Source of the DNA: Epulopiscium sp. Nele67-Bin004
Lineage (GTDB): Bacteria > Bacillota_A > Clostridia > Lachnospirales > Cellulosilyticaceae
DNA length: 18,910 nucleotides
Assembly (NCBI GenBank): GCA_002007315.1
Contig: LNZQ01000033.1
Span: 1-18,910, forward strand
Direction of reading: 5' to 3'
The translations under genes and the position numbers were made by a program. Under the pieces are notes generated by a model. The model saw nothing but the letters and a program-made list of their open reading frames with translations, searched no databases and was not told the DNA's origin. Below, one piece after another: positions 3,714 to 18,910 of this stretch; position 1 is the stretch's first letter; each line of letters opens with the position of its first letter.

Positions 3714-3731
3714 TTAAAACCTCCTAACTTA

Positions 3732-3888
3732 TACAGCGGGCGGCCAGACCGAATACAGTGGGCGGTTGACCTTAATACAGCGGGCGGCCAGACCGAATAC
3801 AGTGGGCGGTTGACCTTAATACAGCGGGCGGCCAGACCGAATACAGTGGGCGGTTGACCTTAATACAGCGGGCGGCCAGTGACCGCCC
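3732..3888. repeat. 44-bp perfect tandem repeat (3 copies plus a partial) ending in a REP-like hairpin
   Basis: Units at 3732-3775, 3776-3819 and 3820-3863 are identical. Each unit is itself two diverged 22-base halves beginning TACAGCGGGCGGCC and TACAGTGGGCGGTT. The fourth, partial copy (3864-3888) changes into the complete type A hairpin GGGCGGCCAGTGACCGCCC, which is also found at 11139, 11222, 11953 and 12973. The array sits between two co-directional genes inside the probable operon and contains no unique spacers. Confidence 0.9.
3870..3888 (-). repeat. type A REP-like hairpin abutting a stop codon
   Basis: GGGCGG/CCGCCC stem with a seven-base loop. Read on the minus strand it is immediately preceded by GTAG (3892-3889), and the TAG of that tetranucleotide is the stop codon of the chromate transporter gene. 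Confidence 0.8.
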
Positions 3889-4440
3889 CTACAGTGGCAA
3901 TATAATGCCTAAAATACCTCCTATTATTATAAAAAATATTGGGTGTTTGTTGTATTTTTGTATTAGCCAATATATGATACCACAAACAGCTATTCTAAGT
4001 ATTTGAAAAGCTATGTCATCGCCACCAAATCCAAATGCAACAAATCCAACGTTTATAGCGGCAGCAGCAATAATACCAGCAGCAGCAGGACGTATGCCGT
4101 AAAAGGCGTCTTGCACAGTTTTATTTTTGCGAAACTTATCAAAGATGCGAGCCACTATAACTATAATAACTATAGCAGGAGATACAAGCCCAAGCACTGA
4201 TATAATGCCGCCCCAAATGCCAGCAACTTTGTAGCCCATAAATGTTGCGGCATTTACACCGATTGCCCCAGGGGTTGACTCAGCTATGGCAACAATGTCA
4301 ATAAGTTCTTGTTGTGTTATCCAGCCATATTGCTCAACAAGTTCTTGCAAAAATGGAATAGTTGCAAGTCCACCACCAACAGAAAAAGCACCTATCTTAC
4401 AAAATTCCAAATATAAAATTAGATATATAGAGTTTATCAT
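3889..4440 (-). CDS. chromate transporter, half-size CHR protein (second of pair)
   Basis: A 183-residue membrane protein with one CHR domain: FCKIGAFSVGGGLATIPFLQ, then GWITQQELIDIVAIAESTPGAIGVNAATFMGYK and several later hydrophobic helices. This is the half-length type, where two paired genes replace the single fused transporter; in the family the pair works together as a membrane anion (chromate/sulfate-type) carrier. Its ATG overlaps the stop of the upstream paralogue by ATGA (4437-4440). The E-S-T-P-G-A-I-G-V-N segment is the conserved signature. The stop TAG is shared with the REP-like element that follows directly, so the C-terminus (GIILPL) may have been set by that insertion. Confidence 0.9.
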   Translation of the reverse strand: MINSIYLILYLEFCKIGAFSVGGGLATIPFLQELVEQYGWITQQELIDIVAIAESTPGAIGVNAATFMGYKVAGIWGGIISVLGLVSPAIVIIVIVARIFDKFRKNKTVQDAFYGIRPAAAGIIAAAAINVGFVAFGFGGDDIAFQILRIAVCGIIYWLIQKYNKHPIFFIIIGGILGIILPL

Positions 4441-11085: not shown

Positions 11086-11092
11086 GAAAAAA

Positions 11093-11283
11093 AGGAAGGG
11101 CGGCAGGAAAAGGCAAGGGCGGCAGGAAAAAAAGGCAAGGGCGGCCAGTGACCGCCCGTACAGGGGTGCGAATGTTGTAGGGGCGATCATCGGTCGCCCA
11201 AATGCAGGGGGGAAAAGGCAAGGGCGGCCAGTGACCGCCCGTACAGGGGTGCGAATGTTGTAGCCCAAATACAGGGGGCGAAT
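11093..11283 (+). repeat. REP-like palindromic repeat array 1 (between ytxC and RAYT)
   Basis: A GC-rich array in an AT-rich genome. It has two truncated GGGCGGCAGG copies, a complete type A hairpin (11139-11157), a type B hairpin preceded by GTAG (11181-11199), a second type A (11222-11240) and a type B copy that has lost its hairpin (11260-11266). The A-to-A period is 83 bases. Between A and B lies a conserved spacer, GTACAGGGGTGCGAATGTT. The array ends a few bases before the RAYT stop codon. Confidence 0.85.
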
Positions 11284-11284
11284 A

Positions 11285-11740
11285 TCATGGCATAGGATAA
11301 CGATTATTAATCCATTTGCAGGGGTTGTTTTGTATATAGGTATAGATATTTTCATATTCATTAATATCCCTAATGATATGATCATGAAAAGATTTGTGCC
11401 ATATACAAAAACCAATTTGGCGTGTGACTTGTCCTTTGAGAGCATTAATAATGTTTGATACAGTTGATGAGGGAGTAGAGCTAAAATTTTTCAGTTGTAA
11501 GATTAAGTGAATATGATTAGGCATAATTGTGTATATATGAATGGAAACATAGTTGTAATAATTTGGGATATTTAAAATAGTAGTTTCTACAATTTTACCG
11601 TAGGACGATAATTTATGAATGTTTGGGATTTCCCATAATATTTGATATTGTTTTTTTGTAGATACCGTAATGAAATATAATCCATTTCGTGAATAGTCAT
11701 ATTCAGCGAGGCGGATTTTTTTGCGTGCACGTACTTGCAT
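11285..11740 (-). CDS. REP-associated tyrosine transposase (RAYT, Y1_Tnp family)
   Basis: A 151-residue single-domain HUH-fold nuclease. Features in order: RARKKIRLAEYDYSRNGLYFITVST (the RAYT opening), YTIMPNHIHLIL with the metal-binding H76-x-H78, then IWHKSFHDHIIRD (the RAYT W-x3-F-x-D-H signature) and NIYTYIQNNPCKW with the likely nucleophile Tyr135. RAYTs are domesticated relatives of IS200/IS605 transposases that cut REP sequences at a GTAG-type tetranucleotide beside a hairpin. The start ATG 11740 follows AAAGGAG; an upstream in-frame ATG gives 21 extra hydrophobic residues without support. REP-like arrays lie on both sides, the second beginning 80 bases upstream. All key residues are intact, so the enzyme may be active. 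Confidence 0.92.
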   Translation of the reverse strand: MQVRARKKIRLAEYDYSRNGLYFITVSTKKQYQILWEIPNIHKLSSYGKIVETTILNIPNYYNYVSIHIYTIMPNHIHLILQLKNFSSTPSSTVSNIINALKGQVTRQIGFCIWHKSFHDHIIRDINEYENIYTYIQNNPCKWINNRYPMP

Positions 11741-11837
11741 AAAAACTCCTTTCATAATGTAATAATATAAATATGCACAAATATAAAGAATTTTAATCAT
11801 CAAATATAAAAATTATATAGCGGAGTGGCAGAAAAAA

Positions 11838-12009
11838 GGGAAGGGCGTACAGGGGCGAATATTGTAGGGGCGATCATCGGTCGCCCAAATACAGGGGTGC
11901 GAATGTTGTAGGGGCGATCATCGGTCGCCCGAATGCAGGGGGGAAAAGGGAAGGGCGGCCAGTGACCGCCCGTACAGGGAGGCGAATACAGTCGATTGCC
12001 CCTTTTTTT
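11838..12009 (+). repeat. REP-like palindromic repeat array 2 (between RAYT and Rpn gene)
   Basis: It contains a type A copy with its hairpin deleted (AAGGGCGTACAGG near 11841-11853), two GTAG-type B hairpins (11868-11886 and 11912-11930), one intact type A (11953-11971) and a degraded end, GCGAATACAGTCGATTGCCCC followed by seven T. The orientation is the same as arrays 1 and 3. Confidence 0.85.
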
Positions 12010-12012
12010 GTA

Positions 12013-12041
12013 TTGTGAACCTATAAAAATGATGGTATGAT
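12013..12041 (+). promoter_or_regulatory. sigma-A type promoter of the Rpn-family gene
   Basis: TTGTGA (12013-12018) and TATGAT (12036-12041) are separated by 17 bases, with TGG making an extended -10. It starts a few bases after the repeat array ends and 31 bases before the ATG. Confidence 0.65.
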
Positions 12042-12071
12042 ATAAATATAGAGAGAACAAAGGAGGAAGCG

Positions 12072-12929
12072 ATGAGTACCAATAAGCAACCTAAGTATGA
12101 AGATTTAGTTATGAAAAGGTCTATGCAATTGTTTGGGGAATACGGAACAAAATATTTTGGCATAAACAAAACAGTGAAAACTATGGGGCATACAGAACAA
12201 CCAAAAGTGACAGTTGAAAATGGTCAGCTAGACTATGTGGGGCTAACAACAGATGATACGTATGTGCATTTTGAATTTCAAACAACTAACAAAGGAAGAA
12301 GTGACTATGCAAGGTTTTGTGCATACGATGCAAACTTGACGCAACAAACAGGAAAAGATGTGGACACGTATGTTATATATTCAAACAACATAAAAAGGCC
12401 AACGACAGAATACAAGTTTGGAAGCATACACTATAAGGCGACTGCAATTTGTATGTCAAATAAAGATGGTGACGCAATATTCGAAACGATTGAGAACAGA
12501 TTGAAACAAGGTGAAGATTTGACAGAGCAAGATTTGATGGATTTAACGTTTTTGCCACTGATGAGTAGCAAGTTAACTAAATTGGAGATAATAAAAAAGA
12601 CGTTAATACTCACAAAAGAATTTGAAACAGAAAAAACTAAAGATGTACAATCACTAGTTTTTGTGTTAGGTCTAAAGTTTTTAAAGCCAGAGGAAATAGA
12701 AAGTATGGTGGAGGTGTTTAAAATGACGATGTTAGGAAAAATGTTGTATGACAACGGAAAAGCAGAAGGAAAAGCAGAAGGAAAAGCAGAAGGAATAACT
12801 ATAGGTGAAATAATAGGTGAAGTGAAGACGCTATATTTACGACTAAAACTAAGCATTGAAGAAATAGCAGAAGAGCTAAACATATCAACGCAACAAGTGA
12901 CAGAGATAGTATCACAAATAAATGCATAA
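12072..12929 (+). CDS. Rpn-type PD-(D/E)XK nuclease family protein with GX3 tail
   Basis: A 285-residue protein with AGGAGG six bases before the ATG. The N-terminal half has ENGQLDYVGLTTDDTYVHFEFQTTNK, the D...E-x-Q form of the PD-(D/E)XK active site seen in Rpn (recombination-promoting nuclease)/transposase-like proteins, then YARFCAYDANLTQQTGKDVDTYVIYSNN. The middle is helical. Near the C-terminus are six glycines at four-residue spacing (GKAEGKAEGKAEGITIGEIIG), encoded partly by a perfect 12-bp repeat. A helix-turn-helix-like end follows (LSIEEIAEELNISTQQVTEIV). Rpn proteins are DNA endonucleases linked to horizontal transfer and phage defence. This gene is bracketed on both sides by REP-like arrays and has its own promoter. 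Confidence 0.8.
   Translation: MSTNKQPKYEDLVMKRSMQLFGEYGTKYFGINKTVKTMGHTEQPKVTVENGQLDYVGLTTDDTYVHFEFQTTNKGRSDYARFCAYDANLTQQTGKDVDTYVIYSNNIKRPTTEYKFGSIHYKATAICMSNKDGDAIFETIENRLKQGEDLTEQDLMDLTFLPLMSSKLTKLEIIKKTLILTKEFETEKTKDVQSLVFVLGLKFLKPEEIESMVEVFKMTMLGKMLYDNGKAEGKAEGKAEGITIGEIIGEVKTLYLRLKLSIEEIAEELNISTQQVTEIVSQINA
12756..12791 (+). repeat. three perfect 12-bp in-frame repeats in the Rpn tail
   Basis: GGAAAAGCAGAA occurs three times in a row (12756, 12768, 12780), encoding the G-K-A-E units. Slippage here would change the protein length by four residues without a frameshift. Confidence 0.9.
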
Positions 12930-12934
12930 GATTG

Positions 12935-13086
12935 CAGGGGGAAAAAGGAAGGGCGGCAGGAAAAAAGGGGAAGGGCGGCCAGTGACCGCCCGTACAGGGG
13001 CGAATATTGTAGGGGCGATCATCGGTCGCCCGAATGCAGGGGCGAAAAGGGAAGGGCGGCCAATGCCCGTACAGGGTGCGAATATT
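12935..13086 (+). repeat. REP-like palindromic repeat array 3 (after the Rpn gene)
   Basis: Includes one truncated GGGCGGCAGG copy, an intact type A hairpin (12973-12991), a GTAG-type B hairpin (13013-13031) and a shortened type A (13054-13069, loop and part of the stem missing). The spacers match arrays 1 and 2, and so does the orientation. Confidence 0.85.
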
Positions 13087-13113
13087 GTAGGGGCGATTGC
13101 CCCCTTTTTTTTG
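13087..13113 (+). terminator. REP-derived rho-independent terminator
   Basis: GTAG (13087-13090) leads into GGGGC-GATT-GCCCC (13090-13103) followed by eight T. It looks like a type B element with its centre removed. It would end the Rpn transcript. Confidence 0.7.
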
Positions 13114-13534
13114 TGCCCTGATAATATAACGGCTATTTATACCATGTCATGCCTTACCACCTGTCAAAGCAACTTAAATGACAGCTATTCAAATAGTTAT
13201 AATTGTTGCTTGATAATTTAGTCATAAGTTTAATAAATAATAATATATACAACAGCTACTAGGCGTATGTCGTATGCCTATGTGAAATATGTCGAAAATA
13301 AAAAATACGCCCCTGCCCTATTGCATATTTCGCCAAAGTCCGATATAATTTTGTTTAGGTAGCGCAACTGGTTCAAGCTATACTGTACTTTAAAACGTAT
13401 GTAGTTGTAGATGGTAGCACTCACATAGATAATGTTTAAATGATTTTTATGTTGTATGACAGCAAGGGATATTTAAAATATTATTACATAGATGAAAACT
13501 AACTGTAACTTTATTTATAAATTCGTAATAAACA
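13114..13534. other. non-coding stretch upstream of the surface protein
   Basis: About 420 bases without a credible gene. Seen here: an AAGCAAC...GTTGCTT stem (13167-13173 with 13205-13211), an eight-pair hairpin AGGCGTATGTCGTATGCCT (13261-13279), and two matches to the Spo0A box TGNCGAA, one on each strand (13290-13296 plus, 13329-13335 minus). A small stem, GTAGC/GCTAT, lies near 13361-13384. No tRNA or known riboswitch is recognised. Confidence 0.5.
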
Positions 13535-13696: not shown

Positions 13697-16600
13697 ATGA
13701 GTAATAAAGTAAAAAGAATGTTGGCTGGTATTCTTTCGGTAACGGTTGCAGCGACGACTGTACCAATGGCAACTTATGCAAGCACGGCGACTACAACTGC
13801 GGTTGTTCAAACAGTTGCAAGTGATGTAGTTGTTGAGGATGTAGATTATCATGAGATAGAAGTTGAATTAGATGGGACGAACGATGCAGTAACGATTAAT
13901 GAAGCTTTTGAAACTGATTTAACGGAGTTAGAAGAAGCAAAAGACGCAATTAAAGTTACTATCGTTGCAGGAGATGAAAGTACATTAGAATTAGGTGCTG
14001 AAATTACCGTTCCAGCAGGATATGCACTAAAAATTACTGCGGATGTAACAGTTGTATTGACTGAAGATAGTGGAATTACACTTGAAGATGGTGCGATTCT
14101 TACTGTTGAGGGGCTTGTAAACGGGACTGGAGATGGAATGATTACAATCGCTGAATCTAGTGATGACGATGATGATGACGATGACGGTGGATCATCTGGA
14201 CTAGCAAGAGACAGTGGGGACCCTTTAACAGCAACTATTGATGGATCAGGTAGAATTGATACTATTGGTATTGAAGCTGATGCTGATGCTGAAGTTACTT
14301 TTAATGGAAACTTAACGCTTGGAAGTATCGAAGCAGACGGGATTGACGCTATCAACAAAGGTACGATAAAGTTAGGGTATAGAGACTTAAAAGGTGATAT
14401 AACAAAAGGATATGATAATGAAGTAGAATTTAAAACCTTAACTAATAAAGTAGGTGCAATATTTGAACTTGAAGCGTATGCATTATCTATTGATAACTTA
14501 GGGGCAGACTATGACGTTGCTATTGGAACAACTTTAGTGGTTGATAAGTTAACAAACAATGGACAAGTAATAGTAAATGCAGACTCAGATGAAGGGGTAG
14601 ATGGAGCAGGAAGAGACAAAACAGCAATTGCTGAAGCTACTATTACAGCGGGTTCAGTTGAGAACACTGGAACAATGAGTGTAAAAGGGGTTGAAGAAGT
14701 ATCAACAACATATACTTTGGCTGCTGAAACTGGTATAAATGTAACAGGTACCGTTAACAACAGTGGTCATATCCAAGTTGACACTTATGGAACATTTGCA
14801 GCTGGAACATTAAATAATAAAGTTGTAGTTGATGAAATAACAAGTGAAGGAACAGTAACAGTTGAGGAAAATGCAATAGTAACAGTTACTAATATTACTA
14901 ATGAAGGAACATTTACTATTTATGGAACTGTTATGCTTGCAGATAATAGTAAAATAGTTAACGATGGTATACTAAAAGTGTTAGGTCAACTAAACGTATT
15001 AGGTTTAACAGGTATAGTAATAGAAAATAACGCTACTTTAATCGATAATGAAGACGATAAAGAGGGTTCTTTAGTTGGAGAAAATGAAAATGTAACTATA
15101 TCAATCATAAGCTTTGAGTCAGGGCAAGCTATTTTAAACAATGATGGTAAAACAGCAACTTGGACACCAGCAGTTAATGCTGCAAACCCAATTGTAAAAT
15201 ATGATGGGGACGAAAATAATGAGATAGCTATATCGGTTGAAGTTTTAGATCTGCATGCAAGTATAACTGCAGATGAAGTATTAGGCTGGAATGAAACTTT
15301 GGACACTCTTGCTACAGATCTTAATGACAAGTATACTACAGATCCTAATACTTTAGGGTATGAACATGGAGAAACTATCGTAGTTAAATCATTTGGAGAT
15401 AACATTTACGCTGGAAAAGGCGCTGGAAAAATACATTATACGCAAGCTGTAGTTTCAATTGATGATGGCGAGGTAACTTTAACTGAAGGTAAGACAAGTA
15501 CAGCTACATTTGATATTGAGCACTTAACAGTTGAAGTTGAAGTTGACAATTTAACAGGAACAGGCGAACAGTATTTAGAATTACATTATTTTGGTGACGA
15601 TATTGTAATTGATGATTTTGGATTTGCAGTAGCAGATGAAAGTATATATTCTGGAACTTTAACAAATGACTTAGTTGTAGGTGAAACTTATACTATGGAA
15701 GCTGAATTTAACGATGATAGAGAGCTTGTTGTTGGAAAAGACTCAAATGATTTAGTTAAATATACGGTAAAACTAATTAATAAAGAAGTTGAGAATGAGA
15801 ATGGTACTATAGACATTATACCTAATAGTTTTGAGTTTAATGACGAATATACATGGTCGCCAGATAAAACAACTTATATAAGTACTGTGCCAGTAAGATT
15901 TGTACCAGCAAATATTGAAGTTAAAACGCAAGTAGAAGAAGTGGTAGACGCAATGGACCCAGCTAACGTTATTACACCAGCTCAAATGGTTAAAAGTTAT
16001 AGCTACCTTGGTGAAGACCAAGTAACATTATCGTTTGAAATGCTTTATACAAACGATCATAGTTATGAACCAGCAGCAGGAACTTATGCTAGAAATTTAA
16101 AGCCAGAGGCAATGGAATTTACTGCAGACGATGCGAGCGGTGCATCACAAGTGATGGAGATCATTGGGGATATTTCAGTATCTGAACAAGAAAAAGACGG
16201 TGAAGTTGTAGGGGTGGTGTATACAGTTACATTAGAATTACCATCTGGGCATGCAGAATATAGTAATGATCTTGTTATAAGTGTAGCTTACAATGGAGCA
16301 GAGAGTACAGCAACAGGTGCTGATGGAAACTACAATGATATGACGGCAGCAGAATTACTTACACTTACACCGGGTTCTCCAGAGCTTAGTAGACCAATCA
16401 TTGAGCATGATGACTTTGTATATGGTGAAGAAGTAAAAGTTTCTTTTGATGCAGACGTTTATATTAATGAGAACATGCGTCCAGCCTTTTCAACAGTAAA
16501 TGATGATGTTCGAGTTGATGGAAATCAGGCTGAAAGAGCGACAGCAATGGTTACAGGGTTAAAAGTTGGAGAGTATGCAAATGCACTTAGACTTGAAATT

Positions 16601-18910
16601 TTCTATAACAACATACCGGAAGCAACTTTTAACTATAATGTTGAAATAGTTGAAAAATCTATCTTTAATGCAGATGGTACTCTTGCAACAGGAATCGAGT
16701 CGGCTTATGAATATGACTTATCAGGAAATCCAGCAGCAAATGCAGATGGAGACTACAAATTAGTTTACGCTGGTTATAACGGTGAAGAAGTTGCTATCGA
16801 CGTTATTAAAAATGAAGAAACAGGTGAAGTAACTATTAGTGCTACTGGTGACAACTATACAGGTAGTCATACATTTACTCCAGACTTTGAAATTACAGCT
16901 CCACAAGTTGATCAAACTCTTGAAGAAGCAACTACAATCATTGAAGGTATCGATTTCCCAGAAACAGCAAAAACAGTTGACGGAGCAAAAGAAGCAATTA
17001 ACGCATTAATTACAGTTGCGGAATTAAAAAAGCTTGATGTTGATACAGACTTATTTGAAGTGGAAGCTGCGTACACAGATAACGTTGATGTTGATGGTAT
17101 AGGAACGCTTACTGTTGTTATTACAGTTACAGGAGATGAAGGTAAAGATACTATTGAGTTTACTGTTAATATCGACCCAGAGAATCCAGAGCCAGAAGTA
17201 ACAGAACCAGAAGTAAACGAGCCAAATGCAGACTTTTTACTTCCAACAAAATTTAGCGACTTAGCAGTAGCAGCAGATGAAGCAGCAGCGAAAACACAAG
17301 TTTTAGCGGAAGCGGCTAAGCTAATAACAAACAAAGCATTTACAGTTGATGTAGAAACAGTTAGCTTTACAGCACCAACAACAACTACGGCAGGGTCATA
17401 TGTGTTTGACTTAACAGTTGAAGAAACAGATAATGACGCAAATAGTGCTACAAAACAGTATGAAGTAGCAATTGCACCACTTGAAGTGAAAGATCCAGAA
17501 ACAGGTGGAGAAACTGTAACAACAAGTGCAGCAATTATGTTAAGCCTAATTAGCGTGCCAACAGAAACACTGGCGGAAGGATCAACAATTGACAATGCGA
17601 AAGCAGTTGTAAATAATGCAATAGCAGCAGCGAAATTAGCAAATGATGACTTTGAATTCTTTGATGTATATGTAGAATTCGCAGAAGCATTCGAGGTAGA
17701 TGCAGATGGGGTAAAAACACTTGCATATACAATTACAGTTGAAGAAATTAAAAATACAGCAAACAACGAGGAAAAATCTGGAGTTGTAAAAATTGCAGCT
17801 GATACAACAGTAACACCAGGACCAGAACCAGAACCAGAGCCAGAGCCAGAAGTTGATCCAGAAGTTGAAGACGAGTTTGAAGACTTTGAATATGAGGTTG
17901 ATGTTGAAATTGCAGAACCACAAGCACCAACATTTGACGGTGTTGAATACCCAGACACAACTACAGGTTCAGCAATTGAATTAGTTGACAAGGCTATCAC
18001 TGACATTGGTGGAGCACTTGCAGACTTAACAGTTGATGCAGACTTAACAGTTGAGTTTGAAGATGCTCTTGATGTTAAAGATTTAGACTTTGATGGAATA
18101 CTTGAAGTTGCAAGAGATACTGTTTATGACGCAGTAATCAAGTTATTAAAAGGTGAAGGGTTTGACCTTGACGGACTTAAAGTAACTATCAATGATATTT
18201 CATTAAAAGGTAAGCTTGACACAGCAGAAGATGACAACACTCTAGTTTATACAGGACAAGTTGTTATTGAAGAAATGAACGCTGAAGGTGAAGTTGTTAG
18301 AACGACTACAATTGCAGCAGTAAGTGAAACTGTTGAAGTTGAAATCACTGGAATAGCATTCACACCAGGTTCTACTGATGAAGAAGAAACAGATGAAGAA
18401 GAAACAGATGAAGAAGATGAAGATGAAGACGAAGACTTAGATATCGACGTTGAAATTGAAGACGAAGACGACGAAGAAGATAACAAACTTGAGCCAGAAA
18501 TCGAAGTTGAAGATGACAAAGAAGACGAAACACCAAACTTCACTTACACAGGTTCATCAACCGTAACTTACTACTCAGGAAACAGCTTTACATTACCAGT
18601 AGTATACGATGCAAACGGAAACTTAATCACAACAGCAACTATCCAAGGAACAAACCAAGTTGTTGACGCAAGCGGTAATATCCTTGTTAACGGTCAAATC
18701 GTTGGACACATCACAAACACATCAGGAACTTACACATTAGTATTTGAAGGTGTTGATGGAGAAACTATGACAGTATCAATCAGAGTATTAACAGCACTTA
18801 GCGGAAGTGGAAGCACTTCATCAAGCACAACAACTAACGGAGCATCAGGAAGTGTTGTTGCAACAACTACAACAACTGAAGAAGATAGCACGGAAACAAC
18901 TACAACAGTT
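13697..18910 (+). CDS. giant acidic secreted surface protein (partial, C-terminus off right edge)
   Basis: The frame is open for 1738 codons from an ATG with GGAGG nine bases upstream. Residues 1-28 are a Sec signal peptide (KVKR, hydrophobic core, TYA|S). Residues about 70-450 look like a beta-solenoid, with short repeats such as 'LTNNGQVIVNA', 'VNNSGHIQVD' and 'ITNEGTFTIYG', interrupted by eight Asp (156-163). Beta-sandwich-like sequence follows. Four related helix-plus-strand units lie at about 1074-1160, 1177-1264, 1275-1371 and 1415-1548, separated by Pro-Glu linkers. A strongly acidic linker (about 1557-1614), a last beta domain and a Ser/Thr-rich tail come next. I found no cysteine. 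This fits an S-layer-like or adhesin protein; an anchor (SLH or LPXTG) would be beyond the window. The family is not recognised. Confidence 0.85.
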   Translation, partial: MSNKVKRMLAGILSVTVAATTVPMATYASTATTTAVVQTVASDVVVEDVDYHEIEVELDGTNDAVTINEAFETDLTELEEAKDAIKVTIVAGDESTLELGAEITVPAGYALKITADVTVVLTEDSGITLEDGAILTVEGLVNGTGDGMITIAESSDDDDDDDDGGSSGLARDSGDPLTATIDGSGRIDTIGIEADADAEVTFNGNLTLGSIEADGIDAINKGTIKLGYRDLKGDITKGYDNEVEFKTLTNKVGAIFELEAYALSIDNLGADYDVAIGTTLVVDKLTNNGQVIVNADSDEGVDGAGRDKTAIAEATITAGSVENTGTMSVKGVEEVSTTYTLAAETGINVTGTVNNSGHIQVDTYGTFAAGTLNNKVVVDEITSEGTVTVEENAIVTVTNITNEGTFTIYGTVMLADNSKIVNDGILKVLGQLNVLGLTGIVIENNATLIDNEDDKEGSLVGENENVTISIISFESGQAILNNDGKTATWTPAVNAANPIVKYDGDENNEIAISVEVLDLHASITADEVLGWNETLDTLATDLNDKYTTDPNTLGYEHGETIVVKSFGDNIYAGKGAGKIHYTQAVVSIDDGEVTLTEGKTSTATFDIEHLTVEVEVDNLTGTGEQYLELHYFGDDIVIDDFGFAVADESIYSGTLTNDLVVGETYTMEAEFNDDRELVVGKDSNDLVKYTVKLINKEVENENGTIDIIPNSFEFNDEYTWSPDKTTYISTVPVRFVPANIEVKTQVEEVVDAMDPANVITPAQMVKSYSYLGEDQVTLSFEMLYTNDHSYEPAAGTYARNLKPEAMEFTADDASGASQVMEIIGDISVSEQEKDGEVVGVVYTVTLELPSGHAEYSNDLVISVAYNGAESTATGADGNYNDMTAAELLTLTPGSPELSRPIIEHDDFVYGEEVKVSFDADVYINENMRPAFSTVNDDVRVDGNQAERATAMVTGLKVGEYANALRLEIFYNNIPEATFNYNVEIVEKSIFNADGTLATGIESAYEYDLSGNPAANADGDYKLVYAGYNGEEVAIDVIKNEETGEVTISATGDNYTGSHTFTPDFEITAPQVDQTLEEATTIIEGIDFPETAKTVDGAKEAINALITVAELKKLDVDTDLFEVEAAYTDNVDVDGIGTLTVVITVTGDEGKDTIEFTVNIDPENPEPEVTEPEVNEPNADFLLPTKFSDLAVAADEAAAKTQVLAEAAKLITNKAFTVDVETVSFTAPTTTTAGSYVFDLTVEETDNDANSATKQYEVAIAPLEVKDPETGGETVTTSAAIMLSLISVPTETLAEGSTIDNAKAVVNNAIAAAKLANDDFEFFDVYVEFAEAFEVDADGVKTLAYTITVEEIKNTANNEEKSGVVKIAADTTVTPGPEPEPEPEPEVDPEVEDEFEDFEYEVDVEIAEPQAPTFDGVEYPDTTTGSAIELVDKAITDIGGALADLTVDADLTVEFEDALDVKDLDFDGILEVARDTVYDAVIKLLKGEGFDLDGLKVTINDISLKGKLDTAEDDNTLVYTGQVVIEEMNAEGEVVRTTTIAAVSETVEVEITGIAFTPGSTDEEETDEEETDEEDEDEDEDLDIDVEIEDEDDEEDNKLEPEIEVEDDKEDETPNFTYTGSSTVTYYSGNSFTLPVVYDANGNLITTATIQGTNQVVDASGNILVNGQIVGHITNTSGTYTLVFEGVDGETMTVSIRVLTALSGSGSTSSSTTTNGASGSVVATTTTTEEDSTETTTTV
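17812..17875 (+). repeat. Pro-Glu repeat linker in the surface protein
   Basis: Encodes TPG then PEPEPEPEPEVDPEVED, a rigid, negatively charged spacer between repeat units 3 and 4. Shorter versions lie near 17176-17223. Confidence 0.8.
18376..18540 (+). repeat. acidic low-complexity linker in the surface protein
   Basis: Starts with a 15-base repeat (GATGAAGAAGAAACA twice) and continues as nearly pure Asp/Glu for about 55 residues. It separates the four-unit repeat region from the last beta domain. Such linkers may bind divalent cations; that is inference. Confidence 0.8.

Follow-up and report, generated by a model that had tools for sequence, protein, structure and literature searches.

The RAYT gene and its flanking arrays

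The stretch of DNA studied here (18,910 nucleotides, contig LNZQ01000033.1 of assembly GCA_002007315.1 from Epulopiscium sp. Nele67-Bin004, further referred to as the window) contains a gene for a repetitive extragenic palindrome (REP)-associated tyrosine transposase (RAYT), an HUH/Y1 transposase-like protein of 151 amino acids recognized by motif and profile matches. The gene occupies positions 11285..11740 on the minus strand and is located between two arrays of hairpin-forming repeats, REP array 1 (11091..11284) on its 3' side and REP array 2 (11820..12010) on its 5' side. REP array 3 (12930..13115) is located downstream of a gene for an Rpn-like protein. The arrays have a G+C content of 59–61% compared to 36% for the window. 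A first-pass annotation made from the letters alone had described GC-rich hairpins on an AT-rich background, with a RAYT having intact HxH and tyrosine motifs between them, and both parts of this description were confirmed.

The RAYT reading frame starts with ATG at 11740, and the sequence AAAGGAG is found 5 bases upstream. The protein has NHIH at residues 75–78, W114 followed by H115, then D120, H121, R124 and Tyr135, and ends 16 residues beyond Tyr135; its two motifs read NHIH and YIQNNP. The longer frame 11285–11803 was used in the profile scan. The NCBIfam model REP_Tyr_transpos matched with E 2.2e-16 (60.1 bits), and the IS200 family profile gave a weak match (E 1e-4, 22.6 bits). The sole relative in the PDB is 4er8 (TnpArep), found with E 0.0009 for the protein alone and with E 2e-10 when an alignment of 28 sequences was used as the profile. 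The predicted structure has a pLDDT (predicted local distance difference test) of 87.1. HUH and Tyr135 are conserved in 120 of 120 homologues, these being the best 120 of 391 with the window RAYT included. A RAYT 40% identical to that of the window was seen on an IMG/VR contig (L081).

Judged by its motifs, the protein appears closest to RAYT subclass 2.4, which equals group 4 of Bertels et al. 2017 and is represented in various phyla according to passages of PMC6006769. Two features of this subclass, NH[IFV]H and YIxNNP, are present, and the third, WQ, is replaced by WH. We did not assign the protein to the subclass because of this replacement and because the gene contains no REP; no in-gene REP was found in the window, such REPs being predominant, not universal, in subclass 2.4.

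Two subtypes of one REP

Hairpin A (GGGCGGCCAGTGACCGCCC) is present in five exact copies starting at 3870, 11139, 11222, 11953 and 12973, and hairpin B (GGGCGATCATCGGTCGCCC), in four, starting at 11181, 11868, 11912 and 13013; the chance expectation equals 0.00 for each (200 shuffles). On the minus strand A reads GTAC-GGGCGGTCACTGGCCGCCC, with GTAG instead at 3870, and on the plus strand B reads GTAG-GGGCGATCATCGGTCGCCC. With the foot included, the A-type REP spans 11139..11161 (minus strand; the same GTAC foot accompanies the hairpins that start at 11222, 11953 and 12973), the B-type REP spans 11177..11199 (plus strand; likewise with GTAG for the copies starting at 11864, 11908 and 13009), and a remote A-type REP with a GTAG foot spans 3870..3892 (minus strand). 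GTAC departs from the GTAG (or GYRG-type) consensus in 4 of the 9 intact REPs.

Both hairpins follow one pattern on the tag strand, GTA(G/C)+GGGCG(G/A)TC-NNN-GG(C/T)CGCCC, and are identical in 18 of 23 letters, in opposite orientation. Stem pair 6 differs by a compensated change (G-C in A, A-T in B); at stem pair 7 both have T.G. The stem has 7 pairs with a loop of 5 as folded, or 8 pairs with a loop of 3 by eye, within the 6–13 pairs and short loop characteristic of GTAG-type REPs. Folded as single-stranded DNA, the tag strand is more stable than its complement for A (−7.3 vs −6.1 kcal/mol), B (−8.2 vs −7.7 kcal/mol) and the GTAG form of A (−8.5 vs −7.0 kcal/mol). When A and B are on the same strand they also pair with each other, giving a single long hairpin (z −2.8 for the 98 bases folded). 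A and B represent two subtypes of a single GTAG-type REP arranged in inverted dimers, on the plan of bacterial interspersed mosaic elements (BIMEs) or REP doublets forming hairpins (REPINs), and not two distinct hairpins as initially annotated. Inverted dimers and clusters outside genes, typical of GTAG-type REPs, are found in the window itself, and many dispersed copies per genome were observed in related genomes. A search against Rfam gave 0 matches.

Array 1 consists of truncated A pieces at 11098 and 11117, A (11139–11157), B (11181–11199), A (11222–11240) and the scar GTAGCCC at approximately 11260. Array 2 contains the scar of a lost A at approximately 11843, B at 11868–11886 and 11912–11930, and A at 11953–11971. 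In array 3, a truncated A (12951) is followed by A (12973–12991), B (13013–13031), a degenerate A (13054) and a REP remnant (13090–13103); the remnant and the T run after it make up a terminator-like site that closes the array. The scars near 11260, 11843 and 13054 read as places from which a hairpin was removed with its edges retained. Of the proposed two-hairpin unit with an 83-base period, the exact step was seen once (11139 to 11222); the other step (12973 to 13054) is 81 bases and ends in the degenerate copy, and neighbouring hairpins are otherwise 36–45 bases apart.

The same elements had also been noted at 3732–3888. One intact A, the remote copy described above, and a tandem of truncated A-type pieces (3731..3869, a 44-base unit made of two 22-base halves) are indeed found at 3731–3888, and B is absent there. 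The TAG of the remote foot doubles as the stop codon of a chromate-transporter-like gene (3889–4440, minus strand).

Co-distribution of REPs and RAYT genes

For the analysis of related loci we used 80 RAYT loci from named genomes, the best 80 of at least 494 relative-encoding stretches (585 candidates). In these loci, hairpins with a GT[AG]G foot had a density of 0.94 per kb up to 1 kb from the RAYT and of 0.19 per kb at distances above 2.5 kb. Split further, the gene itself contained 118 hairpins (3.10 per kb), the sequence around it up to 1 kb contained 62 (0.40 per kb), and that beyond 2.5 kb contained 80 (0.19 per kb). A GTAG foot was found on 139 of the 228 hairpins situated in the RAYT genes or at most 700 bases away, many of these 139 being in-gene, compared to 30 of 200 hairpins farther off. 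The motif used for REP search, GTAGGGGCG-N9-CGCCC, was present in 16 of 18 genomes picked from the same loci.

An even draw of 291 genomes from the class was then considered, in which RAYTs were called at E 1e-8 with fragments counted. RAYTs were found in 55 genomes and the REP motif in 41, the reversed control giving 5 hits in total. At least one REP was present in 28 of the 55 genomes with a RAYT and in 13 of the 236 without; for at least five REPs the respective numbers were 18/55 and 4/236 (Fisher 3e-11), or 16/52 and 4/236 after exclusion of three genomes with RAYTs known beforehand (G001, G002, G011). In total, the motif had 744 copies in the RAYT genomes and 123 copies in the others. 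Among the sampled Clostridia genomes, those with a RAYT of this kind were shown to contain more GTAG REPs.

In the genus of G001 (whose locus L007 is labelled Acetobacterium fimetarium), chosen since its central genome has both REPs and a RAYT, 3 of 19 genomes hold a RAYT. These have 44, 86 and 81 motif copies, compared to 0–28 in the 16 genomes without (at least 3 in 14 of the 16; exact p 0.001). The REP subfamily that makes up the L007 arrays showed the same tendency, with 19, 39 and 38 copies vs 0–14. Overall, the class and genus samples indicate that GTAG REPs in Clostridia tend to occur together with RAYTs of this clade.

REPs can outlast the RAYT gene, as in G192, where 43 REP copies accompany one broken RAYT remnant. 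G605 and G606 are among the genomes with 12–46 GTAG REPs for which the alignment used found no RAYT; a REP_Tyr_transpos search of four REP-rich genomes without a RAYT gave only one degenerate remnant, that of G192. When the REP core of the window was searched for in the order of G015 (295 genomes), no close relative of this REP population was found: matches with at most one mismatch were present in 16 genomes, in one of them exact (a single copy in G340), and no genome exceeded 16 strand hits, many of which are near-perfect palindromes counted on both strands. The exact tagged B motif had 0 matches in viral contigs.

REPs within related RAYT genes

In 43 of the 80 loci, both members of an inverted REP pair are located within the RAYT gene; only the 3' member is in the gene in 16 loci, only the 5' member in three, and neither in 18. 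The inverted pair often flanks the HUH-coding part, in frame (L001–L080, L098–L150). The 5' tag falls in the same alignment column in 45 of 46 cases and in the same frame in 45 of 46, and the translations of 39 of 40 in-gene REPs start with V-G. In the 40 in-gene pairs suited to comparison, likeness was 94% for two copies from the same gene and 58% for copies from different genes; of 2000 shuffles, the highest value was 66%.

A second sample combined the window with 53 loci of the class draw and three of the G001 genus, one stretch (L151) having been dropped as it gave no hit. With GTAC feet allowed, 55 of 57 loci had a tagged hairpin either inside the gene or no more than 700 bases away. The two samples have five genes in common. 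The phylogenetic tree was built for 125 RAYT rows (123 different, 120 distinct genes), leaving out seven of the 80 loci, which had odd frames, and the weaker class loci, and it contained no well-supported set that included the window. In-gene REPs were present in 97 of the 120 distinct genes and absent from 23, the window among the latter. Gain or loss of in-gene REPs required 18 changes on the tree compared to a shuffle mean of 21 (8 and 13 of 500 shuffles were as low), which suggests that these REPs come and go and that the trait is only loosely clustered. With the window excluded, at least two REPs outside the gene were found for 11 of 22 genes lacking an in-gene REP and for 13 of 97 genes having one (Fisher p 0.0004, kinship ignored).

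REPs inside subclass 2.4 genes, mostly between HUH and Tyr, are described in passages of PMC6006769. In the passages of the RAYT and REP literature that were available, including those of that paper, we found no description of the paired arrangement or of the concerted likeness of the two copies. Since RAYT genes of the wider clade tend to contain two copies of their own REP, alike within and unlike between genes, the co-evolution of protein and substrate becomes measurable from sequence alone.

Interpretation of the locus

The locus is very probably a REPtron: on either side of a RAYT nearest to subclass 2.4 lie the REPs that belong to it, GTAG-tagged and arranged as inverted two-subtype dimers. 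The claim of a REP/RAYT system in a Clostridia-type genome is upheld by the match to a REP-type model, the relationship to 4er8, the GTAG tags, the inverted dimers flanking the gene on either side and the co-distribution of REPs with RAYTs in the class sample and one genus. Small DNA-cutting enzymes of this type are believed to spread short hairpin repeats in many bacteria. Other RAYTs bind or cut folded single strands in a strand-specific manner, as reported in passages of PMC8266576. In the window, the tag-bearing REP strand would fold while the DNA is single-stranded; the RAYT would bind foot and hairpin, cut at a dinucleotide selected by pairing with the foot, and move or copy the dimer in trans. 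Local tandem amplification of a founder unit may account for most of the growth of the three arrays themselves, because the repetition extends to the spacers and the four array copies of A share the GTAC foot while the remote copy has GTAG.

Several observations weigh against this reading. The RAYT scores below the curated cut-off of 80 bits of NF047646, which is a model threshold and not a biological feature, and Pfam Y1_Tnp gives it 20.9 bits with a cut-off of 23. The hairpin excess at related RAYTs is mostly in-gene, where the window RAYT has none, and is approximately twofold outside the gene. The co-distribution statistics ignore kinship among genomes, and the genus was selected for having both parts in its central genome. 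The anticipated dependence of copy number on RAYT presence across relatives, seen in the class sample and in the G001 genus, was not significant (p 0.14) among the 38 genomes of the G069 family: 11 of 18 RAYT genomes have no REPs of this type, and 6 of 20 genomes without a RAYT hold 2–46 copies. Further, three genomes (G213, G255, G306) hold 12–31 REPs with no RAYT found. Finally, the H115 replacement could mean loss of function. Two side arguments became weaker when the hairpin excess was split up and the shared genes were removed; the main ones were left in place.

If the last point applied, the REPtron would be a dying one, in which the H115 RAYT is inactive and the arrays change by slippage and recombination only. 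We regard this special case as unlikely, yet as the most serious of the alternatives. His115 is rare: among the other 119 of the best 120 of 391 homologues, the residue after the conserved W is Gln in 117 and His in two (P0002, P0044), and among the 80 related loci Gln is found in all 78 that have this column. Profile alignment to 4er8 suggests that His115 takes the place of Q95 of the E. coli protein, a residue that contacts GTAG according to passages of PMC6006769 and PMC8266576. The GTAC feet of the array copies of A are off-consensus as well; such feet are rare elsewhere, with 18 matches vs 1281 for GTAG in 26 genomes chosen as REP-bearing, and 2 vs 139 in or near the 80 related RAYTs. Several hairpin-loss scars and truncated units also fit decay. 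Opposed to it are the open reading frame, the good ribosome site and the intact HUH and Tyr motifs, and four exact copies of A and four of B persist in the arrays.

A functional link between the two departures may be conceived instead. Passages of PMC8266576 report that a GTAC foot in Marinomonas moved cleavage from CA/CT to GA/GT. Foot and protein could have changed together in the window, so that the His-bearing RAYT would act on dimers with two guides, GTAC in A and GTAG in B, each end being cut at a different dinucleotide; we consider this rather improbable. A dimer with GTAC and GTAG feet next to a RAYT with an altered contact residue nevertheless represents a natural variant for the study of how the foot selects the cleavage site.

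Less probable still, the hairpins could be kept for reasons of RNA function, such as transcript ends or mRNA stability, with the proximity of the RAYT being incidental. Minus-strand A is followed by T-rich sequence and is terminator-like at three places, the window has 6 terminator-like sites vs 1.8 expected, including the REP remnant 13090–13103 with its T run, and the remote A is located at a gene end. The GTAG foot is outside the stem and is not known to have a role in termination; the preference of GTAG-footed hairpins for RAYT genes and their vicinity (139/228 vs 30/200) and the co-distribution of REPs with RAYTs also speak against this explanation. It is hardly credible that the gene encodes an ordinary transposase of an IS200/IS605 insertion sequence (IS), with the hairpins representing IS ends that remained after repeated insertions, since the weak IS200 match and the motifs in common are set against a far better match to REP_Tyr_transpos (60.1 vs 22.6 bits), tandem inverted dimers to either side of the gene with no unit of one gene, left end and right end seen in the window, and the 744 motif copies in 55 RAYT genomes vs 123 in 236 others.

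Other features of the window

The gene encoding the Rpn-like protein (12072..12929, plus strand) lies between arrays 2 and 3; its match to TIGR01784 is 26.5 bits with a cut-off of 52.1, and the protein contains GKAE repeats. It is probably a bystander. Its participation in the system was considered and rejected, as a profile of its homologues found no copy in 88 other loci. The plasmid nucleotide relatives of the window cover only a part of this gene and come from four Paraclostridium records. At 13697–18910, a reading frame on the plus strand, at least 1738 codons long and with many short direct repeats, continues past the window end and would encode a very long repetitive protein. The nearest named relatives of two window proteins belong to Cellulosilyticaceae for one and to Epulopiscium or Clostridium for the other.

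Comparison with known systems

REP-RAYT pairs had been taken as best known from Gammaproteobacteria. This is fair for GTAG repeats, which occur predominantly in that class according to passages of PMC3733652, but the same passages report tagged REPs from 8 phyla, and subclass 2.4 extends over various phyla in those of PMC6006769. Firmicutes and clostridia are not mentioned in the available main text of PMC3733652, nor clostridia, Gram-positives or phyla in that of PMC2817692, nor Firmicutes or clostridia in that of PMC8049555; the available text of PMC6006769 does not mention Firmicutes, and one of its two mentions of clostridia concerns subclass 1.1. No papers titled on RAYTs in Clostridia or Firmicutes were found in a search whose scope excluded supplements and most subscription papers and which is therefore no proof of novelty. 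The window adds a clear REP-RAYT locus for a Clostridia-type genome, such systems being untreated in the passages of RAYT and REP papers available to us.

The locus resembles subclass 2.4 in NHIH and YIxNNP, and in three G-C pairs at the base of the REP stem; the subclass is found scattered among phyla, and in-gene REPs are present in the related genes, as published. It differs in having WH instead of WQ, no in-gene REP, short linkers and arrays located outside the gene. With the E. coli REPtron and its BIMEs (group 2; Y and Z REPs) it shares two inverted REP subtypes beside one RAYT, the GTAG foot and an imperfect stem, whereas the stem of the window REPs is shorter (7–8 pairs), contains a T.G pair and lacks an AA/GC bulge, and the window RAYT, ending 16 residues past the tyrosine, does not have the C-terminal extension of group 2 described in passages of PMC8266576. 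The Sm REPtron of Stenotrophomonas (group 3), as presented in passages of the same paper, also has a short hairpin with a 3-letter loop directly after the foot, and the window RAYT has D at the position corresponding to residue 100, as in subclass 2.5 in passages of PMC6006769. In contrast to the Sm REPtron, it has NHIH and not DH[LF]H, belongs to another phylum and is accompanied by a GTAC foot on 4 of 9 intact REPs.

Further parallels are found in the G001 genus, within which the arrays vary, being of a single orientation in L096 and made of alternating two-subtype pairs in L097. Three loci of this genus (L095, L096, L097) have, like the window, RAYTs without in-gene REPs and tagged arrays outside the gene. 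They differ from it in the GTAG feet of their tagged hits, in WQ and in the step of the arrays, 148 bases in L097 and 78–81 bases in L096. L097 is similar to the window also in that two REP subtypes alternate in opposite orientation on one side of the RAYT, with further REPs on the other side.

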